Part shown: in pieces, positions 16,449-63,262 of the stretch
Numbering within the stretch: the first letter of the stretch is position 1
Layout of the letters: every line of letters starts with the position of its first letter
Origin: Scenedesmus sp. ARA3
Lineage: Eukaryota > Chlorophyta > Chlorophyceae > Sphaeropleales > Scenedesmaceae
Length of the DNA stretch: 64,000 bases
Assembly (NCBI GenBank): GCA_004335835.1
Contig: RWJK01000793.1
Coordinates: 1 to 64,000 of the forward strand
Reading direction: 5' to 3'
Made by a program: the position numbers and the translations under genes
The notes under the pieces: generated by a model
Seen by the model: the letters and a program-made list of their open reading frames with translations, nothing else
Database searches by the model: none
Told to the model about the DNA's origin: nothing

Positions 16449-18721
16449 TCAAGGAGAAGATGTAGGTGGTGCTCGCACCCTGCCGTATGCAACGACAGTG
16501 CTGTTCACCACAACCAGGTTGTCACCGCTGCCAATCCTTGCCTCCAGTGCAACTGTCCCGGGGCTCACGATGCTGCAATGCACCACTGCAACACCAGCTG
16601 CATTTGTCTTCACCACATTGGAGGTGCCGCAAGCCATGCTGTATGGCGGGCTGGGCCGCAGCCTCACATTCACGTTGTGAACTTCAGCCCTGGCAGTCTC
16701 TGAGCTGGTGACCTTCGCAGTGAACCTCACCACAGAGCCCACACGCACCCGACCTGTTGCATTGGACGCGATCGTCAGCGATCGCACCGGCGCGGGGGCG
16801 GGCTCGCCTGCAGGAGTCTTAGAGGGCTCGGTCGGGCTGCGGGTGCCTGTGCAGCGGTTTTCCTGCAAGTACTTGTGCGCAGCAGCTGCCTGCACGAGGC
16901 CGTGGCCGAACTCGTTATCGTAGCCGGGTGTGCCGAGGTCTGCTGCGCTCCAGCTGATGGCAGCGCGCAGCTCAGGGCCGCTGCACTCGGTGTGTGCTGA
17001 CCACACGAGGCCGGCAACACCAGCTGCTGTCGGCGTGGCCTGCGTGCGGATGGAACGGCGGGCAGCGCAGCAGCGCCGTCGTCAGTCATCATATCAAGCA
17101 CCCAAAGCAGTTGATTCTAGCTCTACTGCGATGAACGTCGCGGTGGTGTCTGGCTTCCTCAGCAGCAGCAGCTTGTTTACGTGCTGCAACCCCAACCAAA
17201 ACTACAGCACCATGCATGGCATGTTTGACCACCTTTGAACGCAGCATGTTTGACCATGCTTGACCGCCCCTCAACTCACCATGCTAGTGCCGGACATGAA
17301 GTCATACGGCAGCGGGCTTGTAGACTTGCGGGCATCGATGGTGAGCGCCAGGTTTGGCACCTCTGCAATCTTGGTCTTCAGAGCCTGGCCCTGCGCCTTT
17401 GTGATGGTGAGCCCCACAGGCCAGCCTGCTGCCGGCTTGGTGCAGCCGCCGTCCATGCTGCCATCGAAGGTCTCGCAGTCATCCATGTCATCCCTGCGCA
17501 GGATTATGCATTGTGCGGTAAGGTATAGATAAAACCGGGCACGCTGCTGCTATTGGGTGACTAGTAAGCTGGAAAGTGTGCAGCAGTCCATCTTGGGAGG
17601 TGTGCATGGAGCGCAACCCAATGTTACATACGGGTGCCGTCAGATGTGGCAAGCTGCGCAATAATCGCAAGTGTACCGCTGCGTGAGCGGCTGGCAGCTG
17701 CATGCTGTGTATGTCGTGATGCCAACGGTTGGTGGTGTGCTGCCGACCTCACTTGCCATAGATGATGTGCAGGGTGTGCAGACCGATAGTACACAAGGGT
17801 GCCAATATATGTATTGATCTTTCGTCTGCCAGCATATTGCTGTGCTGGCGGCCTCACCTGCCGTAGATGATGGCCCCGATGCCTCCACCAGCCACGCAGC
17901 TGGACACCTTGGAGCAGAACGTGTTCTCTCCGCGCTGGATCAGGCAGATCTTGTCGGTGGCACCTGCACACACAACAGCCACGTTGCAAAGCCGCACAGC
18001 AAGCACGGTCAGGCCTCAGGTTTGCACTGCAAGAGCAGCAGCTGCCTTCTGCTTTGCTGCCGCGCTTGTCGCCGTGCTGGAAGCAGTGCAGGGCTGTTGA
18101 CCTGTCTGCTCCTTTCACCTCCAGGGGCCTAGCAGCTGCAGCAGGCACTGCTGCTTGATGGATACACAATTGCACAATGTGTGTTTGCCCATCTTCTATG
18201 ACCGGTTATGATTGCAGCTGCTGGCTGCAGTTCATCTTCCAGCCTCCGCTGGCGCTGCCACTCGCCTGCATGCTCTACATGCATAAATTACCAGCAGCCT
18301 GCAAGTGTGCTCGCACCTTCGCATGTGGCCTTGCCCAGGCCGCAATCCACCAGCTGTGCTGTGATGCGTGCAGTCTTGCTCTGGCCCAGCAGCCTGGGAG
18401 CTGGGGTCTTGAGCAGCTCGGCATCCATTGTACTTGGTGCGTTGACCAGACTGACTGAGGGCATTGCATTGTAGCTGCTGCTGGCTGCTGAGGAGACCGG
18501 CACGGTTGACAGCGTCTGCACGCCGGGAGCAGCCCTGCAGCAGGTAGGGGGGCAGCAACAGGAGCAGCGTTGAGGAGAGAAAACCCACAATGGGCATTTG
18601 TAGCAAGTGCTGTTATGACTATCTTAAACTGTTCAGCTGCAAAAGGTGCTACAAATCATGCGCTGCAGATCCAGGCGCTTCAAACTCAGCCCATATGCAG
18701 CCCAACATCAGCGCTCCTATA

Positions 18722-18756
<35 letters not shown>

Positions 18757-21295
18757 GTCTCACCAGTCGTTGCGGTCGTTGATCTGGCTGAACGACGCGC
18801 GCTTGCCGGACCAATCCACAGCCGCCACAGACACCACCTCTGGCCACGCAGCAGGGTAGCTATACACCGCACCCTCCATTGCACCGTTGCCTGCAGCTGC
18901 GATCAGCAGCATGTCATTAAACCGCTCGCGGGCCAGGGTTTTGACTGCCTCCCTGACAAGTGGTGTGTCACCCTCTGCTCCGAATGACATAGAGACCACC
19001 AGCTTCATATCGGGCTCGCTTTTTGTGATACGGTGTCCGTCCAACGCGTGCACACACTCGGTGATGGCCACAATGACGTCACTCATGCTGAAAGTGCCCA
19101 TGGGACCAAAAGCGTTGTAGCTGCGGGTGCAACAGAGGGGCAGGCAGAAATCTGGTGTCAGAGGCATGTGAGGTGAGTGCAGGACAGTGGGGTGGACTGT
19201 CAGCACATCTGCTGGCAGGGAAGCTGCGCATGTACTGCCAGTGCATACTGCGACGTACAGCTGCGCAAGTTGCCTAGCAGCCTTGCAGCTAAGCTGCTGC
19301 TTGGCTGTCAATTCATGTCAAAAAACAGTGAAGGTCTGCAGCACTCACTGGAACAGCTGTGCACCCTCAGCAGACACTCACACAATGCCGTGTGACAGCC
19401 AGCTAAGCTACTGCTCAGCTGCTGCTTGATTGTGATTCATGCTAAACGAGGAAGCGTTCTGGCACTCACTGGAACAGCTGTGCGCCCTCAGCCGACACTC
19501 CCACAATGCCGCGGCTGTTGCGTGCTGCTGCAATGGTGCCGCTGGTGTGTGTGCCGTGGCTCGACCAGTCCTTGGACCAGGGGAACTTGCAGGAGGTGTT
19601 GCTGCCATCCACGCGCAGCGACTTGGGCACGCAGCCAAAGGTGTTCTCTGTTGTTGTCAATATCGTGTTTTGCCAATGGCAGCAGCAGCAGCAGCAGGGT
19701 GCATTTGTATTGGTGAGAGAGCAGCAAACAGGACTAACAGGCATCAGTGTGGTTGCAGCAGGCGTTGCGATACTGAAGGCAGCAACCTAACGGTGGCTAG
19801 TTGCCAGCACAATGCCGTGAGGACTCGGAGGATGTGTAAATGCGTTCTTATACAATGCTAGCACACTGCACATATGCTTGCACTTGTTTTACAGCTACAC
19901 CAAGCGGCAGGCGGTGCTGTGCTGCTCATCCTGCAGGGCTGCTCTTCCACGACAGCTGTTGCTGCTGCAACCAAGCACGTGTAATGATCAAGCTAGCACA
20001 CAACAAACTAGTGGCTGCAGGGCTCACCTGAGAACTCTGGGTTAGTGATGTCCAGGCCTGTGTCGATGACGCAGTACAGCACCTTGGACTTGAATGCCTT
20101 GCTGACCTCAATCATGGCAGGCTCGATGGCCTGCACCATCTTGATGCCTGTGGGGAGATGTATGCAGGCCAGCAGCAGCAGCAGCAGGGGTGCTGTTTCA
20201 GGTACGGCATGGTACGTGGAGCGACTCATGGCAACTTGCGGAGTGATGAGACATATCAGCCGCCCTAGGCTTGTGCGCTGTTCCACAGCAAGTGCCGCGG
20301 CTGCGTCAGCAAAGAACGCAGCGCCAACTCACAGTTTGAAGCAGCAGCCGCCACTCACCGTAAGGCACCTCCTCAACAGTCTTGCCAATAGCCCCGTCAG
20401 GTCCGGGTGAGCAGGAGGATGACTGTGCCGGCTCTGCTGCAGCAGCAGCGCCTGCCTGCTGCATCTTGCGGTTCAGCAGATACACGGGCACATCTTCCTC
20501 AACAATGGCACCTGGAATGGCCATTGTTAGGCTCTGAATGGTGAGCTCAGCTGGGTCTGCAGCAGCAGCAACCACAGCCTGCTGTGCAGCACGTGGGCCT
20601 GGGAAGGTTGGCTGGAGGCCTGCTGCACACCTAGCAGCATCGCTGCTGCTGGCGTAGAGAGGCGTGTTTGCAGATGTGTCACCAGTCAAGGCACAGGGTG
20701 CGGCAGCTGCTGCAGGCTGCTCGTCAGCAGCGTTCAAGCCTGCCGTGACGACCTCGCCCACGGTTGGGAGAGGTGTGGTGCTGAAGCTGACGAATTTGAA
20801 CCTTGTGTCGATGTGCTTTACGTAATAGCCTCGCTGCCTGATCACATCGGCCACCTGCGCAATGGAGCAAGCAACACCGGCACAATTTTAAGTTTATGCA
20901 AAGTTATAAGTTGACAATCGGACGAAGATAAGTACATCTCTGTGTTGAAGAGCGATTTCCCTCCTTTTGTTGCGCCAGGCGGGTGCTGTGTGGCGCGAAT
21001 GCCTATTGTGCTCTGGCACAGCCAGTGGTCAACTGTAGTTGTCAAATTATACTTCCAATTACCAACTACAAGTGTTTATACAGACCAAAGGACAGCCAGG
21101 CCTAGCATGTTGCTCATGCAGTTCCACTGCCACTGATCATCGCCTGCTGGTATTTCATGAAGGCGTCCTCACCTGCTCAAGCCTGGATGGATCTGCTACC
21201 CGAACTGTATAATGCTTGGACTCGCAAACTTGCGCGGCAAAGAGAAGGCCGAACAGCACAGTCAGTGCCAGGCAATTGCCTCTGCTGATCTTCAT
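16449..21295 (-). CDS. Secreted subtilisin-like serine protease A (S8 family, 800 aa)
   Basis: Nine exons: 21295-21173, 20854-20359, 20147-20028, 19647-19470, 19120-18764, 18534-18317, 17963-17858, 17493-17280, 17039-16449; all phases agree (801 codons). Residues 1-24 are a signal peptide. Residues about 28-75 resemble an I9 propeptide (YTVRVADPSRLEQ). The catalytic triad is visible: Asp235 in VIDTG, His277 in SHGTHTSG, Ser603 in SGTSMATP, with oxyanion Asn384 in AAAGN. A Cys-containing segment at about 485-535 (VDCGLG, KICLIQRG, IGAIIYGR) matches the protease-associated (PA) insert that helps substrate choice in plant subtilases. After the catalytic domain comes a Pro-rich linker and a beta-rich C-terminal domain (about 665-795). 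The product is probably extracellular. Its paralogue lies head to head on the other strand, with a different intron pattern. Introns hold copies of the exon 4 and exon 7 donor junctions. Confidence 0.9.
17753..17785 (-). repeat. Copy of subtilase A exon 7 3' end and donor
   Basis: The exon 7 end (last base 17858, donor GTGAGG) recurs 105 bp downstream in the intron, with last base 17753 and the donor kept. The copied coding part is short and has a few mismatches. Confidence 0.75.
19349..19400 (-). repeat. Copy of subtilase A exon 4 3' end and donor
   Basis: The final part of exon 4 plus its GTGAGTGC donor (genuine last base 19470) recurs 121 bp further into the intron (last base 19349), about 45 bp with few mismatches. 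Confidence 0.85.
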
Positions 21296-31035: not shown

Positions 31036-31073
<38 letters not shown>

Positions 31074-31075: not shown

Positions 31076-34000
31076 TCAGCCCATGGACTGCCGTATCTTG
31101 ATGAGCCGCTTGAGTGCTGTCAGCCACGTGCCGCACTCGTCCCAATCGCTGGCGGTCAGCTCCACCTGTGAAATCACAACGCAGCATCAGGCAAGGAGTA
31201 GGGTGACAAAACAGTCAGGATGGTGAGTGGCAGGCGGTGCATTGGATGCCGCTTCAAGGGTGCAAGCCTCTGCAGTGCCCCGTGTGTGCTGACAGAAGCA
31301 AGCCAAGCAGGGACCAGCCATGACTATGCCCTCAACTGCAAAGATCTGTACTGGCGAGCGCGTCACCATCAGGCGCCTGAATAAACAACAGCCGCGCACC
31401 TGCAGGTGCTGCGCCGCGGGCCAGTTGCCTGCGTCCAGCGCGGCGCACATCTGCAGCAGCTTGGCCACCACGTGGGACGCCACCTGGCCCTCGTTCAGCT
31501 TCCAGAACAGCCCGCCCAGCCGGCGGCTGTTGTCGTCCATCTCGCGCTTGCGCGCTGCACAGACAGAAAGGGAATTAGAAAAGGACAGGATACAATGGTG
31601 TGTTAAAAAGGCTGTGCCGCTTGAGATTGGGACCAAGAACAGATCAGAAAGCCCCCCAGCCGGCGGCTGTTGTCGTCCATCTCGCGCTTGCGCGCTGCAC
31701 AGACAGAAAGGGACAAATTAGAAAAGGACAGGATACAATGGTGTGTTAAAAAGGCTGTGCCGCTTGAGATTGGGACCAAGAACAGATCAGAAAGCCCCCC
31801 AGCCGGCGGCTGTTGTCGTCCATCTCGCGCTTGCGCGCTGCAGTCATTGCGATCAAGACACAATATGATATCAGCACATAACAAGGCAGGAAAGCAAGAA
31901 TGCGGCTGTTGTCGTCCATCTCACGCTTGCGCGCTGCAGCCTTTGCAATACAACACAACACAATGCAGCAGGTGACGAGGCAGGCAAGCGACTGGGCGGC
32001 AAGTGACTGAGCGGCTGTTATCATCCATCTTGCGCTTGCGCGCTGCGTGCTTTGCCATGTAACACAATACAACACAGCAGATAACGAGGCAAGCATGTGA
32101 GTGGGCGGCTGTTCAGGTCACAACGCCGTCCAGCAACAGCAACACTGCAGCATCATGCACTTGACTACATCCACCCTGTGCCAGCCCCGCACCTGGCGTG
32201 TTGGCCAGCGGCATGCACGCGTTAAACAGGTTGTTCAGGCTGCCCAGCACCGCCTGCTGCTCCCCAGGCACCTTGCTGACGTCAGCAGTCGCCATGCTGA
32301 TGTGCGCAGGCGGCCCAGCGGGAGCCGCCGGCGGCTGCTGCCGCGCCGCCGCACCCCCAGCGGCAGCGCCATACGCACCGCTGCCGCCACCACCACCCAT
32401 CATGCCCCCAGGCACTTGGGATTGGCCCATTCCCATTCCTCCCATCTGCATCTGCGGCTGCATGCCGCCAGCAGCACCCATCATAGGCGGCCCACCACCC
32501 ATCTGACCGCCGGGAGCCGCACCGTAGCCGCCGGCGGCGGCTGCGGCGGCTGGCGGCGGCTGCGCAACTGTTGCGGATGCTGTCGGGGTGAACATCGCGC
32601 GCGGCTGCACGGCCTGCTGCTGCTGCTGCTGGCTGCTGCCGGTTGAGGTGGGCATAGCAGGGGTGAAGGCTCCCGGGACGGCAGCGGGGACGTGCTGCGC
32701 GGGGGTTGCTGCGGGCGCTGCAGGTGTGAAGGTGGCCTGTGGCGCAGGCACCGCCTGGCAAATGCATCGGAAAGACAGCATAGGCCGGCACGAGTGAGTT
32801 GTTTTGAGTTGCTGTCAAGGTGCACAGACATGGCAAGAACCAATGCAGCTGGCAAGCGCTGTACACATGACAGCATCATCCAGCACAGCAGCGCCGCCGC
32901 AAAGATGCTGCGTTGGTATGGCACAACACAGTGCTTTTGCTGCAGCCATCTTTTGCTCAACACCCACAGCTAGAGAGCTCACCTGGCCTGGTGCGCCAGC
33001 AGTGCGTTTCGGCTGGTACACCGACTGCTGCGCAGGCTGCTGCTGTTGCCCATACCCTGCACCATACGCAGCCTGCTGCCCGTACGCTTGCTGCTGCCCG
33101 TAGCTTCCTGCAGCAGCAGCACCATACCCAGCAGCAGCGCCGTACTGCTGCTGCTGCTGCTGCTGTTGCGCCGGCGCGTAACTCTGCTGCTGCGGCTGCT
33201 GCTGCTGCCCGTACGCGCCGGCAGCCGGCGCAGCACCGTAGCCTCCCGCTTGAGCAGCGCTAGCGCCATACCCGCTGCTAGCTGCTGCTGCCCCATACCC
33301 CGACCCAGCTGCTGCTCCGTAACCGCCAGCAGCAGCGCCGTACCCGCTGCCTGCTGCAGCAGCACCTGTAGCCCCGTATGCGCCGTAGCTGCTCTGCTGC
33401 TGTGCGGCGCTGCCGGCTGCTGCCGCAGGTGCTGCGCCGTACTGCCCCGCATATGGGTTTGCTGCAGCTGCCCCGAATGCGTTGCTCCCGTATTGGCCTG
33501 CGCTGGGAGTTGCAGGCTGGCCGCTGGGCTGCACATTCTCCAGCTGGAAGGGGAAAGGCGGCGCAGCCACGTCTGTTGGCACGCTGGGGGCGCCACTCCT
33601 GCATCAGCAGCATAGACACGCACACACAAAGGCCAGAGCAAAGTTTGTGTCTGTTTGTGTCAGGCATATGTTTAGGCACAGCTCGCAGTGTTCGGTCAAG
33701 GAAGGACACCAACGCAGACGCAGCGGGGGCACATGGCAATACGCGGTTGCAGGGGCTGCCGCTGCCGGGCGCCTGCCACAGCCATGTTGGTGCTGTCAAC
33801 TTTACAACCAGGCAGCATGCACCTGCATTGTGAAAGCCCCACAATCCGCACCTGTAGATCCTGTCCTTGAGCACCGCCACGCTGGTGCTGCCTTTGCTAC
33901 AGCCTAACCTCAGATGCCCAACGCTGATCGTACGTTATCAGCACAGCGATCCTCTAGCGCCACACCCCACCTGTAGATCCTGTCCTTGAGCACAGCCACG

Positions 34001-37000
34001 TTGGTGCTACCTTATGTATGGCCTAACAACAGACACCCGATGCTGGCCATGCAATGTCATTGCAGCCAACCCTAACCTCCCCAGCCAACCCTAACCCCGC
34101 ACCTGTAGATCCTGTCCTTGAGCACAGCCACGCTGGTGCTGGCCTCCCCGGGCACCATCTCCAGGTAGCGCAGCGCGGCACCCAGCCGGCCCTGCAGGAA
34201 ACAGACACAGCACATCGTGAGAAGCAGAGAAGCAATATAACATCTGCAATGAGATGCGAGGCATGGCGCAGGCAGGTTGTGAGTGTGGCCTTGGTTGGCA
34301 TATATCACAACGCAGTTTGTTTGATTATTGACTTTTTGAGGACGGGCAGCAGCCATCACAGCAGCAAGGTGGACACGCAGGAACCCCGCTAACCAAACGC
34401 AAACGTCCAAACATAAACAACACGGCTGAAGCAGCGCCAGCAGCAGGCAGCGCACGCCAACGCACCTGCGTGGCCAGCGTGCCGGCGTATGTGGTCACGA
34501 TGTCGGCAAGGCTGCTGCTGGCTGCCGCTGTGTTGGTGGCCAGCCCCAGCACCACGCTCTTCTCAATGACGGCCTGCAGGCACTCCACGCCGCTGCCAGC
34601 AGAGCTGCGCAGGCCCTTGCTCCAGTAGGCCACAGCCTGCACGCCAGCAAAAGTAGAAGATGATGAGAAAAAAGGAGGCGCATGGTTACATGCATGGTGT
34701 GCACCGGCAACAGGCTGCAGCGACTGCACGCCGCCACCAGCAGAGCTGCGCAGACCCTTGCTCCAGTAGGCCACAGCCTGCACGCCATAAAGAAGAACCA
34801 GGAATGTAAGTGGCTACAGCAGACTCGAAGCACCTCCTTTACGACATAAAAATCTAACACCTCAATGTGCATGCAAGGGCGCATGGGCTGTCCACGGCGC
34901 ACCGCATGCGCACATCACAGCCACCCACCTCCAGACACAGCACGTGCGCTCTAGCACCTTGTTGCGCTCACACTCTACAGTAACACCTCCGACCCCGCAC
35001 CTGGTCCACGTTGCCCGCGCAGATGTAGCAGAGGCTGGCTGCGTGCGCCATGCCTGTCTGCCCCAGCCTGCTGGCCAGCGCATCACAGAGGCTGGCCCAC
35101 TGCTCTGCGCCCGTGTATGTGGCCAGCACTGCCAGCGTCTCCCGCCACTGCGCCACGGGGCGGGTCTTGACCAGCGACATGTAGTCGCCGTCAACCATGG
35201 CGGAGATGACCTGCAGGACAGGTTGGATTGATAGCAGCAGCAGCAGCAGCAGCAATTTAGCGCTTCCTTGATGCAAAGAACATGTAAACTGTGCGTGGAG
35301 CCGATCACATTGCAAACTCAAGATCAAACAAGCACAAGCAGAAGCAGTGAAGTTCCCTGCACATGGAACTTCCAGTCTATGCTGCTGCTGCTGCTGGCGT
35401 CTCACCGCCATGTAGGGCCGCGGGTTGCGCCGCATGTAGCGCTGCATGGTGCGCTTGAAGAGCTCGGGGCCACCGATGTTGGCCACCAGCAGCGCGTCAG
35501 CCAGGCGGCCCGCCTTGAGGCAGGTGTCCACGGCGCCCTCGTAGTTGCCCACAAAGATGGCGCGCTGGATGTCGTCCTCCTGCAGAGGGCACCAACAAAC
35601 AATGTTGTCAAATGAAGTTTACAGTGTTGTTTATCGCACCCTCGTAGTTGCCCACAAAGATGGCGCGCTGGATGTCGTCCTCCTGCAGAGGGCACCAACA
35701 AACAATGTTGTCAAATGAAGTTTACAGTGTTGTTTATCGCACCCTCGTAGTTGCCCACAAAGATGGCACGCTGGATGTCGTCCTCCTGCGGCGCACGGTC
35801 AGTAAACTCGAGTTTGTGATTGTGATTGTGGTTTGACCTAGCAATTGCGTCCACCGCGCCCTCGTAGTTGCTCACAGTGATGGCGCGCTGGATGTCGTCC
35901 TCCTGCATGGGCAGGTCCATCTCAAATACTTTTTAGTCACGAGCATGGTTTGACCAACAGATGGGTACACCCTGTAACCCCTCTATCTATCTGACAAATG
36001 TGTACAGTCGTGGGGTGTAGTTGCCCACAAACATGGCGCGCTGGATGCCGTCCTCCTGCAATTGAACACCAATATCAACACAGCAACGATCAGATCAAGG
36101 CTGGCAACCTCATGGTTGATGCACAGACGTTGCTGCTGTCAGCACACAGGCAAGCAACACAAAACGCACGCCGCCGCCAGCGCACCCGTTCCGTGCCCTC
36201 CTGCACATGGTTGGCATCTGCCATCGGCGTCGCCGGCTCGCTGGCGCCACCGTTGCTCAGCCCCGCTGCGCCGCCGGCGCTCATGCCGCCCGCTGCTGCT
36301 GCTGCCGCCGCTGCTGCTGCTGCTGCATCGCCGCTGGGCTGCTCTGGCAGTGAGTCGAAGAAGCCGTGCGGGTCGTCTGCCTGGTTGAAGAAGTCTTCGG
36401 CTGCGCCCGGCACCTCAATGACTGGCTTGCCTGCATGCAAAAATCAAATAATGGTGAGGTCCTGCACAGTAGCACGCATATACTGCGGGCGAGCACAGCT
36501 AGGTGTGTACGTCCAATACCGTTACACATGTTTTGATACGGAGGGTCTGCACCTAACAGAGCCCAAGCCCTGTGGACGCCTATGCAAGCATCACGGGTCT
36601 GGCAACTGCACAGCTGTGATTGCCCATGCTGCTGCAAACAAATTGTTGGCCTCCGATTACACCAAAACCAACCAGCTGCTCCTGCAGAGCAGCGGTGGTG
36701 GCTCACACCTGTCAACAGGCAGCTGCACCATGCTGCATGGCAGGCTCCTCAGTTGCTCAGCTCCTCACCCACAGCCTAACTTGCCACCTGACCACAGCAG
36801 CAGAAACTCACCATCTCCCAGGCCCAGCTGCTCCATCGCAGAGTGCAGCTGCTGCCCCGCAACATCCACGCTGCTGCTGCCAGCAAGCCCGCCCGCAGCA
36901 TCGCCGCTGCCGCTGCCTGCTGCAGGTGCTGCTGCCTGCTGCAGCGCCTCAGCAAAGCCCAGCTTTGACAGCAGCTGCCGCCGTGCATCCTCTTCAAACA

Positions 37001-38906
37001 GCACACCCATGAAGGTCCACGTCTCGCTGTCTTCCTGCGCGCCTGTGGCTGCAGCGTCTGCCGCCTTGTGCGCACAGAACTCCTGCGCAGGCGGTAACAG
37101 CCCATATATGTGAGCAGCGTGCCGCAAGTTGCTACGTGTGTCGTGTTGTCGTTGAGCGGCATGTCTCAAACTTGCCACCCCACACGGTTCAACGAGATAC
37201 GCTAGAGACGCCAGACTGCCTAAATGCAACTACACATGCCTGTCAACCCCCAGCGGCACAACGAAAACTCGACTACTTAGACTGGCGCTGCTGCTGCTGC
37301 TGCTGCTTCAGCGCCGCCGCACCTGCAGCGCGGTCCTGTCCCGGCCCGACACCGCCGCCTCAAAGGCCTCGCTGTGCTCCACCAGCTTCGCCTCGGTCAC
37401 GACCTGGAGCAAAATCAGTACACGATTGCAAAACACACAGCATGCCTTAGACAGCGCCCAGCAGCAGGACAGCACGCAAAGTGGCGCGAGGTGGCGCACC
37501 AACCAGCACGTAAACACAACGTCATGGTTCTGTTGGCAGGCAGCACCCAGCAGCACAACAGTATACTATGTGCCAGATGCTTGTCACAGCTGTCTGGCAG
37601 CTAAACAAAAAATTCAGCACAAAAAGCACGGGAGCAATGATGAGTGCGTATTGCAATGTGCTGGAGCTGCAGGAGCCGGACTGTGCTGCAGCTGCCCAAC
37701 CTGCTGCCACCAGCAGCCACCAATGAAAGATTAAACAATGCAAGCGTTCTTTTTATATTGAGGCAGAGCACTAGACACCAATCTGCACCAGCAAAAGGAC
37801 GCCGCTCTCACCTGGGAGATGCTGATGGCGCCGGTGTCCACGGGCCGCACCTGCCCCGTCATGGGGTCCGTCACCTGCTGCTTGTGGTTGGCAAAGCTCA
37901 CCAGCCGCCCGCCGAAGCCAAAGCACACCCCAGCAGGGCGCTTCAGCCACGCCGGCGGCAGCTTCAGCGGCTTCACATCACCTATGTTGATACAGGAGGG
38001 CAATGCGACAGCATGTGTTATGCAATGTACAGTACTTGAGCAAGTGTTCCTGCCACGCCGGCGGCAGCTTCAGCGGCTTCACGTCCCCTATGTTGAGGAG
38101 GGATGTTGAGGAGGGGAAGCAGGGGAATGCAGCAGCAGGTGTTGTGCAAAGTACAGTACTTGGGCAAGTGGTCCTGCCACGCCAGCGGCGGCTTCAGCGG
38201 CTTGACGTCGCCTGCAAAGCAGCATGTACAGTACGGCGATGTCAACACACGCGTTGTGCAGCATAATGCATGCCTGTTGAGGCGCGCAACGCCCGCGCTG
38301 CTGCTGGAACCAGACGCTACGTTAGAAATCCAGCTGAGTCACCTGCTTCCGTCAGCCACACTGTGCTGTGCACACACACATAAGCACGTTCTATGTGCTG
38401 CACAGCCCCTGCACTCAGGCGCCCACTGCAGCGCTGCCCGCCATGTGGGTCCAGATCTGGTATTAGCGTTAGAACATCAGGGTCAGTCACTCATAACACG
38501 AGAGGACCTGTCGCAGCTGCAGCAAAGCCACGCACCGACTGCGTGCGTCACGCTGAAGTCTGCATTGAGCGTCTCCACCGCGCTGCCGGCCGTGCACTCC
38601 AGCACGTTACACAGCGACACGCGCCCGTCAAAGGTGGAGGTGCTGAACACGCCGGGGGTGGTGGGGCTCCACTGCAGATCAGCACACGGAGCACAGAGCA
38701 GCAGCACAGCAGAGCGTCAAAGGTGGAGGTGCTGAACACACCAGGCGTTGTGGGGCTCCACGGCGGCAACATGACGCAACAGCAACACAGTCAGCACGCG
38801 CTCAGCAAAATGGAGTCAACATAAGTACAACACGATTCCTGAGCTGCTGCAGTATGCGCTTCTAACTGGCCAGCCGACCAGCAACAACCCAGGCATCGGA
38901 CAGGGT

Positions 38907-43294: not shown

Positions 43295-43325
<31 letters not shown>

Positions 43326-44444: not shown

Positions 44445-44482
<38 letters not shown>

Positions 44483-50800: not shown

Positions 50801-53800
50801 GTTCATATTGAATGACCCAAAGATCAAGCAGCCACTGAGCAACGCTATGGCATGCTGGTGTGGCCTCTGTCGATGCTTTTGCTCCACAGGTGTTGCAGAA
50901 CTCTGGGCTTGACCTAAGCAAGCTGAACGTGTATGAGCAGCTGGAGTTCCTGCCATTTGATCCAACAGTCAAGCGCACAGAGGGCACACTCAAGGGGCCA
51001 GATGGCAAGGTGTTCAAGACCACCAAGGGTGAGCTTGGCTGCTGCAGCTTGGGCATGGGAAGGGCATCTGCGCAGCTCTGAAATTAGCTGTGGAGCAGCC
51101 AAACCCAGCTTGCAGAATGGTTTCTGGCTGTTTGTTGCTGCTGCTGCTGCTGCGTAGCATGGGGTGCCGTGTCTTCCTCACCACAGCTGTATGCTGACAA
51201 CAGCTTACATGTTGCGCTGTCTGCAGGTGCACCTCACATCATCCTGAAGCTGGTGCAGGTCGACGCTGAGGACATCAGCAAGCGCGTGCACTGGAAGGTG
51301 GGTTTCGCACACAGCTGTCGGAGGATGAACTGCAGCCGGCATGCAGTCAAAGTGCCTGCAGGTGGCTGGCACAGCACCAGCAGTTGGCTTGTCAGCTCTC
51401 AATTACATGACAATGGCACCAAACTTGCTCAACATACCGTTGCCACGATAACTTGTGCTGCAGGTGCATGAGCTTGGGCTTCGTGGCATCCGCTCCCTGG
51501 CAGTGGCGCGCACTGACGATGAGGGCAAGTGGCGCATGCTGGGCATCCTGACGTTCCTGGACCCACCAAGGTGCGCGCCAGAGCTGCCTGTGCAGTACCA
51601 TGAGTCTGAACAGCGCAAATGTTGCACGCACACAGATCTGCTGCTGCACAAGCATTTGTTGTAACACGCTCTCTTGTGCTCATGAACTCCGTACTGTGTG
51701 TCAGAGTTGCTGTCTGCGGCTGTTGCTGATGATGTGCTGCACAACCTGCTGCTGCTACCGCTGCAGGCCTGACACCAAGGACACCATTGAGAAGGCCATG
51801 GAGTATGGCGTGGACGTGAAGATGATCACAGGTCGGCAGCGAGGCTGTCTTGACTCAACTTTGCTTGCTGTGATACACGGCTGGCTACCTGAATCTCACT
51901 TGCATCAGAGTACCTGCATGAGCTTTGCGTAGATGTGAGGCCACACGCGACATAAACTGCTGCTGCTGTATGCTGCAGGCGACCATGCTGTGATTGCCAA
52001 GGAGACGGCGCGCGCGCTGGGCCTGGGCGCCAACATCCAGGAAGCAGGGGGCCTGCCCAGCATGGAGGCGGACGGCAAGATCCCCAAGGACCTGGGCAAG
52101 AAGTACGGCGCCATGATCATCGCGGCAGACGGCTTCGCACAGGTGCGGCAGCTGTGCATTGCTGAGCATGCTGCAGGGTGGCCTTGCTTGCGCGCTTTTG
52201 CATGCATTGCCTGAATCTTGCAAAGTGCAGCAGGCTGCTGTTTGAATGAAACGCCTGTTGCGGTACCGCTTGTGCAAGTAGTTGTTGGATCTGTGTCTGA
52301 ACTTGTGTTTTGCAGGTGTTCCCCGAGCACAAGTACCTGATTGTGGAGGCGCTGAGGCAGGAGGGCTTTGCAGTGGGCATGACTGGTGACGGCGTAAACG
52401 ACGCACCCGCGCTCAAGCGCGCCGACGTCGGCATTGCAGTGTCTGGCGCGACAGATGCTGCGCGAGCTGCTGCTGACATGGTCCTGACACAGGTGGGCAG
52501 CTGCTGCGTCAAAGAGTGCCATGCTATCAGCATCTGGACCCTAGAGTGTGCCGCCATGCATCACATCTGCGGCCGGCGCGCAGCGCTGTGGATCCTTGCC
52601 TGCATGTTGACAGACTGTGCTAATCTGCACTCTCCTCAAGTTTGCTGCAACTTGTGTTGTGCTGATGTAGGAGGGGCTGTCTGTGATTGTGCACGCCATC
52701 GAGGTCAGCCGCGCCATCTTTGCGCGCATGAAGAACTTCATCAACTACCGGTAAGTGCAGGATGTGCTGTGCCTGCTACCCTGGCAGCTTTACTTGTACA
52801 CAAGCCACTGCACTCTGGCTGCCAGGGCTTGCACCAGAACATATGAAATTTGCATATCTACTTGAAATTGTCAGCCAGGCTCTAGGCACCTGAGCGCTGC
52901 GTTGTGCCACCTGCGCTGCCCTGTTGCTCCTGCAGCATTGCCTGCACGCTGCAGCTGGTGTGCTTCTTCTTCGTGGCGGTGTTTGCGCTGGAGCCCAAGA
53001 AGTTCCGCCCTGATGATGACCTGGCGCCCGACTTCTTCAAGATGCCCGTGCTGATGCTCATCCTGATCACGGTGCTCAACGATGGCACGCTCATCAGCGT
53101 GGCGTACGACCACGTGGTGCCCAGCAGGCAGCCTGAGAAGTGGAACCTCAAGGTAAACTGTTTACAGGGTGTGCACGCTGCAGCAGTGCACGCTGCAGCC
53201 AGCTGGCTGCTGTTTTGAGTGTCAATGTTTTGCAGTGTGGTGCTCTCTGTTGCAGTCCTGGCCATACGTACTTTCAGACAAAACAACAGGCGTTCACGCT
53301 GCTTCACTGGCTTGGTGCCATCTTGCAGGTGCTGTGGGTGATTTCAGCTGTGCTGGCGTCCATTGCCATGCTCTCCTCCATCCTGCTGCTCTGGGCAGCC
53401 ATCGACTCCGGCAACCCCGCTGGCGTCTTCCAGCGCTGGGGCCTGCCGCTCATCCACTACGACCAGATCATCACCATGATGTACCTCAAGGTGTCGGTCT
53501 CGGACTTCCTGACGCTGTTCTCAGCGAGAACTCACAGCGGCTTCTTCTGGAGCATGCGGCCCTCGCCCATCCTGCTGGGCGCCGCGACGCTGGCGCTGGG
53601 GCTGTCCACCATCATTGCCTGCCTGTGGCCGGGCTCGCGCCCAGACGGCATCCCAACAAGGGGGCTGGTGAGCGCTGGGAGAGTGCTGCCGTGGAGCGGC
53701 TAGCTGCCGTGTCTTTGCTGGCCTTGAAACCACATCAGTCTGCTGAGGTGTGTGCTACTTGTGCTGTATGATCAACCTACAGCACAGCAAAACCTCCTTA

Positions 53801-55001
53801 TAGGCAGCACGCCATTCTTCAGCTGGCAGCACGGTGTTCATGACCTACTTGCCCTTGCTGTGCTGCTGCCCTGCTGCTGCGCAGGCGCTTGACGAGCACT
53901 ACACGCTGTGGGCGCTGTGGGTGTGGATCTACTGCATCGTGTGGTGGCTCATCCAGGACACCTGCAAGGTGGCGGCCTACTGGGTCATGGCGCGGCTCAA
54001 CCTGTTCCAGATCAACACCGCCAAGCTGGTCAACATGCGCGCGGCGCAGACCTTCTCAGACAAGCCGCTGGCGCGCGCCAGCGCGGGCTTGGTGGAGGTG
54101 CGTCTGGCAATGCAATGCTGTCCTTATCGAGTGTGTTACCACATTGTGTGCTGCTGTGGATTTAGGTGTGGTGCATGCGACATGCACAGCTGCTGATGTG
54201 TGCGAAGAGCAACGCGCTTGTATCTTGCCCAGGAACTGTCAGCACGTACCCAGCAAGCAGATATATGCATGTCTCCATGCCTTCTCTGCCTAAGCCGCCT
54301 CTCATTGGCAAGCATTGCTCGACTGCTCTGAACTTGCTGCACACACATTTATACATTTCTCTCGCCGCATCGCAGACCAAGCTGATGGAGCTCAAGGTGG
54401 ACAAGGCCATCGACTCCGTGGGGCGCATGGCCAGCGCGCCGGGCGCAGACAGCACCGCCTCCACCAACATGCGCCGCATCAGCGCAGACCTGGTGGTCAT
54501 GCGCAACGCGGCGCGCCTCACGCGCAACAGCATGCGCAACCTGCGCGTGCAGCAGAGCGCTGGCGGCGCTGCTGGTGGCGACGTGGAGGCTGGGGCAGGG
54601 AATGCGGAGCAGGAGGCAGCCCGCATGCACCAGAGCATCGCCCAGGTGTGTTTACAGCGGATACAGCACTGCATGTAGTTTGCTGACATCGCTGCACTGT
54701 GTGCTACTCCATGTAGTCTGTACTGCTGCCTGGCTCGCTAGCAACAACTTGCTTGTTTACATTGACCTCGGCAAGCCAGTCGCTTGGTATGCATTGCAAT
54801 TGATCACTCCTGTCGTCACTGCTGCTGCAGATGGAGGCTGCCATTGCTGCTGCGCTGCCGGAGGCGCGCCCTGAGCTGCAGGCAACTCTGGACGGCCTCA
54901 AGGCCGCGGCTGCACGCCTGGAGGCTGTGCAGCAGGTGGTGAGGACGGAGGACGCGGCAGGCAACAAGAAGGAGAAGGAGCTTCGCAGGGCATCGCTGTG
55001 A
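47823..55001 (+). CDS. PMA: Plasma-membrane H+-ATPase, P-type P3A (1066 aa)
   Basis: Twenty exons: 47823-48009, 48273-48355, 48612-48730, 48997-49115, 49285-49466, 49677-50015, 50335-50385, 50612-50719, 50890-51028, 51227-51297, 51464-51570, 51767-51831, 51979-52142, 52316-52492, 52671-52750, 52936-53152, 53329-53667, 53885-54097, 54376-54645, 54831-55001. All phases fit (1067 codons). It pumps protons out of the cell using ATP. Seen in order: N-terminal cation-ATPase domain ([20 protein letters not shown]), helices 1-2, the actuator loop with LTGES, helices 3-4 with [11 protein letters not shown], the phosphorylation site DKTGTLT (Asp347), the nucleotide-binding domain, the hinge [10 protein letters not shown], and helices 5-10. 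The C-terminal tail of about 170 residues is long and charged and ends [10 protein letters not shown]. It lacks the Tyr-Thr-Val end that binds 14-3-3 in land plants, so regulation must differ. Exon 12 uses a weak GTCGGC donor. Confidence 0.95.
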
Positions 55002-56261: not shown

Positions 56262-59200
56262 ATGCTGTTCACACGCAAGGCCACGAGTGCTTCGTGCAGG
56301 GCTGTTTCTAGGCAGCAGGCGAGCCGCGTGGCTGCTAAGCGGATGCTGGTGGCCGTCAGGGTGAGTGCACCCTGCTGGTGCTGCTGCAACTGTGGTGACA
56401 CCCGTGTCAGGACCTTGGCGGCATAAAATTGTCTTCAAAAACAATCATAAAGGAGCCTAAAGTTCAACAAAGGCTGCGACCTGGCAATTGGCTGATAGTA
56501 TTTAATGCCTTGGCTCTCAGCGCCAAGAGTGAATGCGAGCCTACACTGCATCGACTGCCCAGATAGCGTTCAAGGCAGCCGACGATTTCACTGAATTATG
56601 TTTACAAATGAAGTTTGCCTAGCTGCCGTGAACCCGACAGAAGCAGCAGCAGCAGCACCACTGCCACCACCATCACCACTGCCAGCACCAGCAGCAGCAC
56701 CAGCTGAAGGCTCCATCATGCTCTGCCGTCTTCCTGCCACAGCGCTTTAGATTTCCAATTCTCACATCTGTGCACTGTCACACATGCAACTGCTTGTGCA
56801 CATGCGGCTGCAGGATGCCCCTAAGACCGGCCAGCACTCAGTTGAGCAGGACTTGATGCAAGAGGCCCTGGCCTGCTTCTTCACACCAGAGCAGCAGGCA
56901 GCCACAGCTCCCACCACAGGCGGCGTGAACAACGTGGTGAACTACGTCAGCACAGCAGATGGCCATAAGTGAGTGGCGGAATGTTTTTTCCAATGCTTAT
57001 AGTTTTAGTTGTGTTTAGTTGACATAAGGCAGCGGGGCCAGCTGCAGTGAAATGTGTGCACCTAGCCAGCTGACATATGTGTAGAGAGGCGTGCTCGCAC
57101 AAACTTATGTTGGGACTGCTGCTACTCATTTGTAACTTCACCAACGTATTTTGTGTTGTGTGCTGCGCCCTGCAGGTATGTTGTGCGCATTTACAATAAC
57201 GGCAACAAGACAGAGAAGGTGCGGCTCGCGCATGCAGCTGTGTGTGCGCCAGCGTCCCAGACACTCCAGCTGAGAATAACTTTAGAGCGACAACAGTCAC
57301 CATGCAGCTGCGCCAGCAGCACCAGCAGCAGCAATTTGGCGCAGGCCTTGAGTATCCTTGCGCGCTCCTGTGCAACAAGCTGCTGGCAGGCATGGCTGTC
57401 CTGCAAGGCACATCTCTGCTGACTCTGCTGCATATCCCCAATAATATGTTACATTACATTACAAGCTCCACTCAAACACAAAGAGGGAACCCCAGTCAGG
57501 AGCCAACAAGAGGCTCATAGGGTAATGACACACAGCAGACAAGGTGCTAGTATGATTCTGGCAGCTCATGCATCACGTATGCAGTCAGGGGTTTGGGGCT
57601 TGCACTTGTGCTTACTGCGGTGTGTCCTGTCATTGCTGGCTGCTCTGCGCCCTGCAGGTGAAGACAGAGCATGACATCCTGGGTCAGCTATCGCAGCAGA
57701 CACTCAGCTTCAAAGTGCCAGCAGCCAAGCCTGCGCTGGGCAGCGGCGAGCCATACGTGGTGCTCAGTAACGGAGCAGCCGCCTGCGTGTTTGAGATCAT
57801 CCCAGGTATGGGTGGTGTTAGAAAGGCTTGGTGTGTGGTGTGCAGCAGCGGCAGCAGCTGCGCTTGCAGGTGACAGCCTGGGAACAATGTTGAAGATGCA
57901 GATTTCCGGGTGGGCATCATGGCGTGTTGTGACGCCACAGTACAGTCTCCCGCCATTGCTGTTACTCCAGGCGCGCTGAGCAGCTCTGTCAGCCACGCGG
58001 GAGCTTCAGCGAGGCAAGATAACCAGCATGTGTGTGTCTCACAGCCCTGGATTACAAGCTGATACCAACCATCTTCTTTGTTTTCATCTTCTAATCATTT
58101 GCTGACCATGCAGGTGAGCTGGCCAAGACGACCAGTCCTGAGGAGGTTGGCAGGGCAACAGGCGAGCTCTGCTCAGCCATGGCAGCAGTACAGCTGGACG
58201 GTGTGCCGCCCATCCCGCCCTACTATGACGTGTTCAGGGTGCACCACGCAATCAACAGGGAGCTGTTCTACCAGGACGCAGCCAGCAACCCGGCGTTTGA
58301 GGTGCGGTGGGCTCTTAGGGTCTGAAGCAGTGCATAATGTGCTGGGCAGCTGGGGAGGCATGTTGCGCTGTACATGTATGCTGACGGTAGCAGGGCCGCT
58401 GCGTGGGTGCTGCGCCGTTGGGACCCTGCTTCCTTTGCATTGTGATCACTGTCTTATTTGTTGTTCCCTCTCCTTTTTTGTGTGCAGGTGTGCCGTGCGG
58501 CCATGGACTCCCTCATTGAACAGATGCTCAACAGCAAAGCCCACCATCCTTACACCGCACACCAGTTCCGGCATGACTGCCTGCCCGGCTGCTTAGCACT
58601 TGTCTTATGCATGTGCAAATGTCTGCAGGTGTGCCATGAGGCCATGGACTTCCTGGTGGAGCAGATGCCTAAACCACAAGGCCAATGCAAACTCACATCT
58701 CACACCAGTTCTAGCGCGCGTGCCGGCTCGGCTGCTAAGCATGTGTCAAATGTGTGTGCATGTCTGCAGGTGTGCCGCGAGGCAATGGACTTCCTCGTTG
58801 AGCAGATCCGGGCACTTGAGCCCAAGCTTGAGGCCTACCAGCAGCTGGGGCTGCCCATGCAGATCATCCACGGCGACCTGCACTATGACAATGTGATGGT
58901 GCTGGGCGACAACGTCAGCGGGTGAGCTAGGGTTTGAATTTGAAGTTTGAATTCAAAGTTTGAGTTTGGGTTTGAATATGTGTTTTAGTTGTTAGGTTCC
59001 TGGATGTGACAATGCAGATCATCCACGGCGGCCTGCATTATAACAATGTAATGGTGCTGGGCGACAGCCTCAGCGGGTGCACCCGCTGAATTATGTTCCT
59101 GCTTTTCCCATTGATGGCTCTGTTATTTAGGCGCCAGCTGTTCTGTGGCAGCGCAACAGCGCCACTAGCGGCAGCGCAATGAGAAGTGGGTTTGTCGCAT

Positions 59201-60691
59201 GCACGCCATTCCAGTGGCAGTCATACTTCAAAGCTGACAAGCACCTCTGCTGCCCTCTGTGTGCTGTGATGTGTGCTGTGCAGGCTGCTTGACTTTGAGG
59301 TGAGGCTGCTGCTGCTACCACTGCTACTTCCAATGTTGGTTGTGGACCTGCTGCAGCGGCAACTGCATTCCAGTGTAGCGCACAGCTTGCCAGAGTATAA
59401 TGGCACGGAGGTGATGCACGTCTTGATAGCTCGGTGCATGCTTACTACACAGCAGACAGATATCTTGAGCGCAGCAGGACAACGCTGGTATTGGTCGCTC
59501 ATGCACTGACATGTATTTGTTGCTGCCATGCAGTTCTGCGCTTATGACTGGCGAGTAATGGAGCTGGCAGTCGCACTGTCAAAGTGAGCTGTAGATGCAG
59601 ACACTGCGGTGGCGGCAGTGGCATTGCCGGTACAACAACACCAATGGTTGCACCGCCAGCGCTTTTTGCATCCTGTTGCCTGCACAGTGCCATCCTATTG
59701 CCTGCAGAGGGCCTCATCCTTGTGCTGTCTTGCTGCCAACAAAAAAAACACGATGTCAGCAACAACACACTGCACATGTTATCAGGTGCTCATCACAACG
59801 CGGCCTGTCTTGTTCTCTCTGTCTTTGTCCCATTCTCACTCACATGCTTTTTAAACTTCTAAATAACACATGTTATATTGCAATCCTGCAGGTATGTGGG
59901 TGAGGAGCAGCCGCTGCCGCTCATCACGCAGTTTGTGGCCGGCTACGCACAGAAAGGCCAGCTCAGCGAGCAGGAAATCGAGATTCTGCCTGACCTCATC
60001 AACCTGCGCATCTTCTCCAACGTCATCTACTTCACTGGCAGGTGTGTTGTGACAACTTTTAGATTACTGTCATATTGCAACGTTGTTAATGTGATCCTGC
60101 CAGACCTCACAACCTGCGCATCTTCTCCAACGTGATCTACTTCACGGGACGGTGCGTCAACAACTTTTAACAACAAAAAAATATGTTTGTCCGTCTGCAG
60201 AAGGATACCGAGATCCCACAGACCTCATCATCATTGGCTTAATCTGCTGCAACAAAAAAAACCTTCTGTCTATATAAGTTGTGCGCTAGCTTGTGCTTTG
60301 TCTTTGCTGCAGGGTGCTGGCGGGTGAGGATGGCATCGACAGCCTCAAACATCCACAGTGACCTGCTGCAGAAAGTCTCAGATTGTGCGCTTGCTTGTGC
60401 TTTGCATTGTGCTGCAGGGCTCTGGCGGGCGAGGATGGCATCGACAGCACGCATGCAGTGTCCCATGTTTGTTTATGTTACTAATAGCCCGGTATTTCTT
60501 GCTGCTGCTGCGTCCGTATTGTGCATTGTGCATTGTGCTGCAGGGCGCTGGCAGGTGAAGATGGCATCGACAGCCTTACCTCAAGGGCTGGCAGCTACGC
60601 CAAGCGCGTGGTGTGGGTGAATGCAAACAGGGAGGCGATTGTTGCAGCAGTCAAGGAGCGCATGCTGCAGCTGGCCACCAGCGCAGCGTAA
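56262..60691 (+). CDS. APH-fold small-molecule kinase (homoserine kinase II / COG2334-like), probably plastid-targeted, 382 aa
   Basis: Ten exons: 56262-56360, 56814-56968, 57176-57218, 57658-57805, 58114-58301, 58770-58921, 59284-59299 (16 nt), 59534-59583, 59892-60041, 60544-60691; all phases fit (383 codons). Exon 1 encodes 33 residues rich in Arg, Ser and Ala without acid (MLFTRKATSASCRAVSRQQ), a plastid- or mitochondrion-type leader. The rest is an aminoglycoside-phosphotransferase/choline-kinase fold: a glycine-loop equivalent (GGVNNVVNYVSTADGHKYVVR), Brenner motif HGDLHYDNVM (catalytic Asp247, Asn252) and the metal-binding LLDFE (Asp265), then ALAGEDGIDS. The overall pattern is closest to homoserine kinase type II/ThrB-like proteins. 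The true substrate could instead be another amino alcohol or choline. The metal-binding loop lies in the 16-nt micro-exon. Four exon boundaries are copied nearby. Confidence 0.85.
58488..58715 (+). repeat. Two extra copies of the kinase exon 6 acceptor junction
   Basis: CTGCAG or GTGCAG followed by VC(R/H)EAMDFLVEQ-like coding starts at 58488 and 58629 before the genuine 58770, an exact 141-bp spacing twice. The coding part of the copies has diverged, the first most. Confidence 0.95.
59012..59076 (+). repeat. Extra copy of the kinase exon 6 donor junction, including the catalytic motif
   Basis: CAGATCATCCACGGCGGCCTG through GACAGCCTCAGCGG, followed by GTGCAC, repeats the end of exon 6 (last base 58921) 155 bp downstream (last base 59076). 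In the copy the catalytic Asp codon is GGC (Gly), so it could not encode an active kinase. Confidence 0.95.
60090..60151 (+). repeat. Extra copy of the kinase exon 9 donor junction
   Basis: About 55 bp coding LRIFSNVIYFTGR recur 110 bp downstream (genuine last base 60041, copy 60151), with a GTGCGT donor. A third weak trace (ACAGACCTCATCATCATTGG) lies at about 60219. Confidence 0.95.
60313..60455 (+). repeat. Two extra copies of the kinase exon 10 acceptor junction
   Basis: TGCTGCAG followed by a coding segment for LAGEDGIDS starts at 60313 and 60418 before the genuine 60544 (spacings 105 and 126). Both keep AG and the same phase. Confidence 0.95.
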
Positions 60692-60710
60692 GCACAGTAG
60701 TCCGCTGCTT

Positions 60711-60790
60711 TATGGGTGAACACAAACAGGGAGGCGATTCTTGCAGCAGTCAAGGAGCGCATGCTGCAGCTTGCCATCAGTGCAGCATGA
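60711..60790 (+). repeat. Copy of the kinase 3' coding end in the 3' UTR
   Basis: About 80 bp ending GTGCAGCATGA repeat the final coding bases of exon 10 (genuine stop ends at 60691) 99 bp downstream, with a second stop codon. Confidence 0.95.
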
Positions 60791-61627
60791 TGATTGATCG
60801 ATAGAGTGAGCTGATACCTGCAGAGAGGCTGCCTGTGAGTGATGCTTTTGAGTGTGAGAGTGTGAGAGTGAGCGGGGTGATGACAGCTTGGCTGGCCTGG
60901 CCTGTCGGCAGCAGCACAGGCAGCGTTTAATTGCTTCTGCATGAACCCTGAGAGAGGAGTGCGAGTTTGAGTTGCTTACATAGTCTGTTTTTGCAGCAGA
61001 TTGGTGCTGTGAGTGTGGCAAGACGAGTTGTGTGGTGTCAGCACAGCTGTGCGAATCAAGAGAGACACAAAGGCTGGCCTTGTGAGATATGCATTTGCGC
61101 GAGGGGCTCCAGCACAGTGCTGCCTGAGCAGCAGCGTGTTGCCTGCATGCACAGTTAGGTGCATGCCATGCCATGGTGGTGCATGCTGCATGCTGCAAGC
61201 TGTTGATACAGCAACACTGTTGCAGTGCTGCACCTGAGCAGCAGCGTGTCACAGGCGGCCTGCTGAGCAGCAACGACATAGGCGCGTGCAAGGCAACGTC
61301 TGCGCAGCAGCCGTGGCAGGCTTGCATGCAACTGCGCAATGCTCCTGCCAGTGCGGGTTTCAGCTGCATGCGATGCGATGCATGCGCATGATGTAAGCGC
61401 AGTGTACTGGCCGACGCGCAGAGCTGTTGACGTTTGGAGTCTGCCAGCACGTCAGTACAGTGCAGGCACCATCACACTGGTGATCCAGAAGATGGTTGAT
61501 GTAGTGGTTGCACAATGAGCCTGTCATTGGCTCGAAAATGGGCTTTGTTCCCGTCGTGTAACACACAAAGTGTTATCAGCTTTGATGTAATATGACAGTT
61601 TTAGGCATGGTAGATGCACAACTGAAA

Positions 61628-61804
61628 GCAATGCTGGACCAGAAGCCCCCCTGCCCGAAGGCTCCTGGCGCTCCAAGTGGGCTGATCACGCAGGCGCAGC
61701 TGTCCAGTACCACTGTCATGCGATAGGCATACCTTCAAGCAATGCTGAGCCACAAGACCCCCGCCAAAGTCTCCTGGCACTCCAAGTGGGCTGTTCATGT
61801 AGGC
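61628..61804. repeat. Two-copy 111-bp direct repeat
   Basis: GCAATGCTGGACCAGAAG... at 61628 and GCAATGCTGAGCCACAAG... at 61739 share about 65 bp, ending CTCCAAGTGGGCTG, with about ten mismatches. Confidence 0.85.
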
Positions 61805-62223: not shown

Positions 62224-62260
<37 letters not shown>

Positions 62261-62268: not shown

Positions 62269-62404
62269 CACAGCTGGCAACTGCTGGTGAGAATGTGCGA
62301 GCACATCCACACGTAGCCAACAGCACAAGGAGAGCAACAGGCGCAGGCCGCTACGGTCATACTGCAAGGCACACAGAAGCAGCAGCAGCGCTCTGTGACA
62401 TCAC

Positions 62405-63262
62405 TTAACAAAGTAGCACATGACACAGCACAAGGCACGCAGCAGATGCAAGCAAGCTTCTGTCACGAAAATAGGCGCAGAAGACGCAAGCAACAGCAGC
62501 AGCATCAGCATCAGCAGCAGCAGCAGCAGCAGAGCCACTCACGAAGTAGCACATGACGTCGCTGGTGGTCCAGCGTGTGGAGGTGTCCACGTCATGCAGG
62601 CCCATTGTGTAGGTGGGAGCCATGACCTCAACAATGTCCTGTAGGCGGGCACACACAAGCCAAGTGTCAGCGGCAACAGCAGTCCAACAACCCATGTTGA
62701 GATACACATGGTGTCATGTGTAATGCACTGTCACGTGCACACTTTCACTGCACAACAAGTCTTTCCAGGTGCCCCAGGCGCACACTGCAATAGTTTTGCA
62801 GCTCAGCCTTCTGCAGGTGTGTTTGAGTTTATGTTTACCTCTGTGTATACATAGTCAGGCAGTTCTGTGTGCAATTTTCAACCGACAGACGGACAAAGGC
62901 GACGACTAGCTCGTGTGTGCTGCTGCTGCTTGCTAACCTGCAGGATGAGGAAGCCGAAGAGCGGCGCAAAGTCCAGCTGCCACCACACCACTAAAACAAC
63001 ATGTAACACAAGTGCAACAACAAGTGTAACAACATTATAACAGCAGGCCGCACCTGCAGGATGAAGAAGCTGAAGAGCAGCGTAAAGTCCAGCTGCCACC
63101 ACACCACTAAACCACATGTAACACAAGTGTGACAACAAATGTAACAAGTGTAACAACAGCCCCCACCTGCAGGATGAGGAAGCCGAAGAGCGGGGTGAAG
63201 TCCAGCTGGCCAAACAGCGGCGGCAGGATGCCACGGTAGATCTGCAGGTACGGCTCCGTGAT

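Follow-up and report, generated by a model that had tools for sequence, protein, structure and literature searches.

Exon edges are tandemly copied into neighbouring introns of a scenedesmacean green alga, and the exon-derived parts of the copies decay more slowly

Introduction

Why should the edge of an exon recur, several times over, within the intron beside it? The question is raised by a 64,000-nucleotide stretch of the genome of Scenedesmus sp. ARA3 (contig RWJK01000793.1, positions 1 to 64,000, forward strand; hereafter the window, which is contig C552 of an 87.3-Mb assembly in 1567 contigs). Boundary-crossing duplications have been linked to intron gain: in a potato RdRp gene, a tandem duplication across an intron-exon boundary produced a new intron (PMC4974935), and a review discusses how introns may be gained when exonic AGGT segments are duplicated in tandem (PMC3443670). 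Here we describe the exon-edge copies of the window and of other loci in the same assembly, how their exon-derived and intron-derived parts have diverged, and which explanations fit them.

Results

Junction copies in the window

Self-alignment, Tandem Repeats Finder and a copy-by-copy check bore out the report of a first-pass annotation, made from the letters alone, that, in several genes, the adjacent introns contain tandem copies of exon boundaries. We recovered the 24 extra junction copies that it had claimed, at 13 boundaries rather than 12, and the arrays in the genes that it named have a period of 83-155 bp. Its tally of 16 acceptor-side copies with AG in 15 was likewise reproduced (11 with AG at the listed coordinate and 4 with AG 1-2 bases away in the sequence context), the AG being lost at 38761. 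Eight copies lie on the donor side, and its statement that all of these keep GT had to be corrected to 7 of 8, as AT stands in place of GT at 60787, in the copy of the 60688 donor. The boundaries and their copies in the window are as follows.

19288..19511, minus strand: subtilase A donor edge 19469; single downstream copy at 19348
31400..32113, minus strand: SEC31 acceptor edge, intron end at 31555; four upstream copies at about 31695, 31838, 31934 and 32043
33835..34191, minus strand: SEC31 donor edge 34102; two downstream copies at 33970 and 33851, GT retained
34466..34797, minus strand: SEC31 acceptor edge 34637; single copy at 34778
35406..36060, minus strand: SEC31 acceptor edge 35580; four upstream copies at 35683, 35786, 35903 and 36056, AG in all
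37946..38213, minus strand: SEC31 acceptor edge at about 37980; two copies at about 38086 and 38210
38536..38764, minus strand: SEC31 acceptor edge 38672 of exon WSPTTPGVF; single copy at 38761, without AG
58479..58921, plus strand: acceptor edge 58769 of an APH-type phosphotransferase gene (Pfam APH); two upstream copies at 58487 and 58628
58857..59079, plus strand: donor edge 58922 of the APH-type gene; single downstream copy at 59077
59982..60169, plus strand: donor edge 60042 of the APH-type gene; single downstream copy at 60152
60279..60576, plus strand: acceptor edge 60543 of the APH-type gene; two upstream copies at 60312 and 60417
60614..60786, plus strand: donor edge 60688 of the APH-type gene, the least certain boundary, as our own gene model ends the gene there; single downstream copy at 60787, GT changed to AT
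62936..63241, minus strand: donor edge 63166 of the gene named YggT in the first-pass annotation, a label for which two open frames gave no Pfam support; two downstream copies at 63053 and 62937

The name of subtilase A rests on that annotation and on the translation. The SEC31 exons and their partial copies were recovered with the SEC31 protein of Scenedesmus sp. NREL 46B-D3 (P0121): two edge peptides of 10 and 11 residues, or near forms of them, occur in five places each and a third of 10 residues occurs in three places, and the exons themselves read through normally against P0121. At the 31555 acceptor, the two nearest copies repeat the full unit in tandem (97%), and in the two farther ones the spacer has decayed. 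At the window boundaries compared, the exon-side homology is shorter than the predicted exon. The first-pass annotation had given weight to the fact that acceptor copies lie upstream, that donor copies lie downstream and that no copy holds a whole exon; the pattern stands, and its significance was overstated, because a tandem duplication that spans one splice junction gives both features automatically.

With a stricter repeat finder and our own gene models, 3 of the 15 arrays in the window lie off exon edges, as follows.

14550-14867: array without exon-edge contact
39396-39551: array without exon-edge contact
61626-61804: array without exon-edge contact

The array at 14550-14867 has a 101-bp unit repeated 3.1 times with 96% matches, and no junction is predicted there. 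CAG/CTG triplet repeats occur at many sites in the window, for example at 11545-11638 and 63593-63730. No exon-edge array was found in the window gene at 47.8-55.0 kb (47800-55000), which has more than 15 predicted introns and which we take, by its motifs, to be a P-type ATPase gene. This array-free gene sits between two genes that are full of arrays.

Spread across the genome

Gene models were mostly those of our own small gene-finding HMM, trained on the window together with some 180 kb from other contigs and used in its stricter run, and repeats can mislead such a model; an overfitted version, which called copies mini-exons, was dropped. In 21 loci taken by position, copies are present at at least 26 of 404 predicted junctions, a lower bound given that L021 was set to zero as coding repeats; L006, L020 and L022 were counted as zero by an 80-bp exon rule despite arrays that touch exons. 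The junctions with copies are clustered by locus (permutation p=0.0001 over the 21 loci), with 9 of 36 in L023 and 6 of 23 in L024. Counted copies are absent from 13 of the 21 loci, and 6 of the 21 contain no array of any kind. The pattern is genome-wide but patchy.

The copies used below derive from 122 junction-copy rows that were filtered by dropping predicted exons shorter than 80 bp, L021 and copies on the wrong side (nine wrong-side rows had an exon of at least 80 bp, six of them in L021). This left 36 arrays, to which 13 arrays of locus L025 were added by hand, making 49 arrays with 75 copies. L025 had been picked since Pfam hits showed partial duplicates in it, and it is excluded both from the 26/404 count and from the position-sampled test of junction focus.

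The TCP1-alpha gene and its relatives

L025 is a TCP1-alpha gene by its PDB match to TCP-1 alpha, and protein-level detection gave 35 partial-copy matches at 15 of its exon edges. Within its introns the donor copies come first and the acceptor copies last. One residue difference from the Tetradesmus obliquus protein P0001 is visible in the mapped exons, and most of the longer exons of the L023 gene agree at 96-100% with T. obliquus P0241, the lower figures belonging to stretches that run past the exon edge. This near-identity of both gene pairs indicates that the genome is that of T. obliquus or a very close relative within the Sphaeropleales. In T. obliquus, the annotated TCP1 protein of 547 residues contains no repeated segments, and no exon is kept between the array copies. 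A search with one exon as query found no second copy of the gene in the assembly, its two other hits being 73% and 79% alike.

At one edge of this gene, the real exon reads INCTRAAQGMP, and both the donor copy and P0001 read INCARAAQGMP (L025:3895-4029 and L025:4085-4159); it is the copy, not the exon, that retains the reference residue. Telomere-like TTTAGGG/CCCTAAA motifs lie in the spacers of several L025 arrays (15 in 10 kb). The TTTAGGG motif was found once in the 64-kb window and zero to one times in every other locus, and its concentration in L025 led us to reject it as a general feature of the arrays.

Unit structure and unequal decay

An array consists of two to six copies of a unit of about 85-180 bp, and the units span the junction and include intron sequence. 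Many genes have one to five partial edge copies, with the splice site, in the next intron. The inner ends of the copies are shared within arrays, the mean SD of exon-side length being 3.8 bp compared with 10.5 bp on permutation (0/5000; 19 arrays), as is characteristic of one unit that was duplicated serially in tandem. Such head-to-tail copies with a common unit boundary are what defines a minisatellite. The homology between a copy and its exon edge has a median of 45.5 bp on the exon side and 9.5 bp, ungapped, on the intron side (70 pairs, after 5 of the 75 copies with less than 15 bp of exon-side homology were dropped).

Decay of the copies is slower in their exon-derived part than in the part that stems from the intron, a property that the first-pass annotation had missed. 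Among 42 pairs of intronic copies, the 20 with an alignable intron part show a mismatch of 0.102 in the exon part and of 0.183, plus 9.3 gaps per 60 bp, in the intron part; in the 22 whose intron part is at background, the values are 0.092 and 0.241 plus 17.9 gaps, and both sets of figures carry a bias towards preserved exon parts, as copies were detected by sequence likeness, and undercount indels on the exon side, which was compared ungapped. The window copies were added to this set by hand, and two of them are absent from the final pairs. Mismatch by distance from the junction runs low, high and low over successive thirds, with no clear gradient. At 35580 in the window, likeness is greatest in the nearest copy and lower in the farther ones, which is the order that plain serial duplication predicts; in the first TCP1 array, the copy most like the exon is the farthest one.

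Differences were also counted by codon position, using nucleotide-level detection. Between exon and copy they amount to 6.7, 5.9 and 16.3% at the three positions (83 alignments), and between copies to 7.8, 8.5 and 12.5%. The third-position bias is strong in TCP1 (31, 29 and 107 differences) and weak in L023 (24, 17 and 33) and L018 (8, 9 and 12). By our own estimate, the ratio of third-position to other differences expected for a neutral copy beside a constrained exon is roughly 1.75-2.1; the observed ratio is 2.6 overall, 3.6 in TCP1, about 1.6 in L023 and 1.5 between copies. Some copies thus behave as if they were partly under the selection that acts on the exon, most simply through exchange with it, and others need no such explanation. 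The TCP1 copy at L025:1718-1795 has 11 synonymous and no non-synonymous changes. Ka/Ks values of 0.18 between exon and copy and 0.24 between copies were set aside, as detection by protein likeness biases them, and the nucleotide-level count was used in their place.

Preference for junctions

A high share of junction-spanning arrays is expected by chance because introns are short relative to the unit: when in-gene arrays not confined to exons were shifted at random, 62-64% (about 63%) spanned a junction. The observed share is 37/42 in the position-sampled loci (p=0.0002), 33/37 in the same loci without L021 (p=0.0003), 11/14 in the window only (p=0.18) and 60/68 in all loci including L025 and the window (p=5e-6). 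There is a modest preference for junctions over introns. The idea of a mutational process focused on exon edges, raised in the first-pass annotation, is weakly supported: an excess is seen in the position-sampled loci, and in the window itself 11/14 does not differ significantly from about 63%. Slower decay of the exon part would itself yield an excess of junction-spanning arrays without any mutational focus.

Copies that match annotated isoforms

Two T. obliquus proteins contain residues that correspond to intronic copies, a comparison made at the peptide level with annotated proteins of T. obliquus contigs. P0003 (OEZ86_010546, on a contig of 4.41 Mb) has nine extra residues, VLESGSVVP, at the end of the L025 exon that carries donor copies, and the 27 nt before the donor of the copy at L025:8850, joined between the flanking exons, reproduce this isoform. 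VLESGSVVP is also encoded by the real edge and by two of the other three copies, and an AG stands in front of it at copy 8850 only. P0246 (OEZ86_005727, on a contig of 5.66 Mb) has an extra YPDTHKNAAGHTVTMM before YPDTYKRRG, and the L023 intron that precedes exon YPDTYKRRG holds YPDTHKNAAGHTPTMM, which matches the P0246 insert at 15 of 16 residues; this edge copy is short and lies below the 40-bp limit of the repeat finder. Both isoforms add their residues in frame. In both of these annotated genes, a small exon seems to have arisen from an edge copy; at the least, the isoforms show that such sequences are present in another assembly and can be spliced by a gene builder.

Discussion

Several known systems resemble these arrays in part. 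Intronic minisatellites are tandem arrays of a few copies, and the alga's arrays share this layout with their unit of about 85-180 bp; unlike them, the alga's units have an exon edge as their anchor, and their exon part is better preserved than the remainder. Introners, or introner-like elements, are single sequence families present at many loci, located in introns and equipped with splice sites. The alga too has many intron-located repeats with splice sites, but unrelated arrays compare at background, with an identity of about 0.5 (300 random pairs per type). In tandem exon duplication, which gives rise to mutually exclusive exons, a whole exon is duplicated with both of its splice sites. Here also exon sequence is repeated in the neighbouring intron, and some copies appear to have become small exons, whereas each copy holds one exon edge, as the median exon-side homology of 45.5 bp over 70 pairs illustrates. 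Hellsten 2011 and Gao and Lynch 2009 are among the references of the intron-gain review.

The potato case is similar in that a tandem duplication crosses an intron-exon boundary and doubles the splice sites. It differs in its outcome, a new intron; the alga's copies sit inside introns, at many edges per gene and in up to six copies, and our own gene models of the alga contain no new intron at these sites. The earlier suspicion that this is not the textbook route of intron birth was upheld, as several copies share one predicted intron with no exon between them. We also found, as that annotation had surmised, no published description of dense exon-edge arrays in the open-licence literature. A single boundary-crossing tandem duplication is already known from potato; the dense exon-edge arrays and their unequal decay appear to be new.

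Plain neutral tandem duplication, in which duplications of about 100 bp arise at random, those in exons are purged, those in introns or across junctions survive and nothing else happens, is in our estimate an unlikely account of the whole. It delivers the sidedness and the partial exons automatically, and its geometry, with about 63% of arrays spanning a junction, fits the 11/14 of the window (p=0.18); however, it leaves aside the excess in the larger sets (37/42, 33/37 and 60/68) and predicts equal decay of exon and intron parts between intronic copies, whereas the decay found is unequal. The copies might instead be selected as decoy or poison splice sites that cause unproductive splicing, or as latent alternative exons, selection preserving both the exon sequence and the signal. 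The splice dinucleotides are mostly retained in the window (AG in 15/16, GT in 7/8), the third-position bias and the 11:0 copy in TCP1 point the same way and two annotated isoforms match copies, but each copy has one exon edge, many lags are not multiples of three, so that the frame would often be broken on use, and the arrays are patchy, 6 of 21 position-sampled loci having none; we regard this account as more doubtful still.

An assembly artefact, in which the exon edges of divergent haplotypes or strains were strung together within introns, seems very improbable. Like exon parts with synonymous differences and differing introns do resemble diverged haplotypes, and gaps of 1, 1, 9, 50 and 65 N suggest short-read scaffolds. 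Against this, the isoforms whose peptides match two copies are annotated on T. obliquus contigs that, at 4.41 and 5.66 Mb, exceed every contig examined in the present assembly, the assembly contains no second haplotype for the one TCP1 exon queried, spacers are homologous in young arrays and the order of donor copies before acceptor copies in TCP1 introns is the reverse of what a serially joined bubble would give. The inner ends of the copies show no long identical overlap, the run of identity having a median of 8.5 bp (66 pairs with a mismatch), on which ground an overlap artefact of De Bruijn assembly was rejected. The worry over an artefact appears largely, though not wholly, answered. That tandem duplication made new introns here and left the arrays as their footprint can hardly be credited: the potato gene offers a precedent for a new intron arising in this way (PMC4974935), but a single predicted intron houses several copies, between which no exon is retained, and repeated segments are lacking from the 547 residues of the annotated TCP1 protein of T. 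obliquus. We rank neutral duplication above selected decoys, these above an artefact and an artefact above intron birth.

The explanation that we favour, with moderate confidence, is that splicing tolerates short tandem duplications at exon edges, that exchange with the exon, which is under selection, keeps them exon-like and that some of them become microexons. Tandem duplications with a unit of about 85-180 bp across one splice junction would arise repeatedly and persist as intronic arrays, and these would be nearly neutral, doing little harm, if splicing prefers the exon-proximal site, as might be expected where splice sites are paired across exons (exon definition). After duplication the intron-derived spacer would decay freely. 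The exon-derived part and the splice signal would stay near the exon through ongoing exchange of sequence between copy and exon, either by gene conversion or by growth and shrinkage of the array through recombination within the stretch that still matches; the exon itself is under purifying selection, and the copies would be held exon-like through this exchange. Occasionally a copy may gain the splice site that it lacks and be spliced in as a microexon. Exchange would allow the farthest copy of the first TCP1 array to be the most exon-like. Some copies, including that at L025:1718-1795, have a past under coding constraint for which exchange with their own exon does not account.

A bolder extension, which we offer only tentatively and hold to be unlikely, is that exchange between exon edges and their intronic copies is a live system: the copies would be spare exon ends that recombine back into the exon, selection would reach into introns because a copy has a chance of becoming exon, and the arrays would serve as a steady nursery of microexons and alternative exon ends. 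If it is true that selection reaches the copies by exchange, there would be intronic DNA under coding selection, of which we found no description. How splice sites are chosen is put to a natural experiment in each array, where the exon-proximal site has to prevail over near-identical competitors, and the arrays make exon definition versus intron definition testable in a green alga. The copies may also be graded, from tandem duplications that are still fresh to microexons that are annotated, and the formation of a new exon could be followed along this series. Exon-edge copies are, moreover, a trap for gene prediction. Pfam searches of this genome for TCP1 and AAA gave only a few duplicated profile ranges, and at G000:C1470:75281-75547 two adjacent AAA matches cover the same range of the profile (1-34 and 1-35), which makes this site a candidate exon-edge copy.
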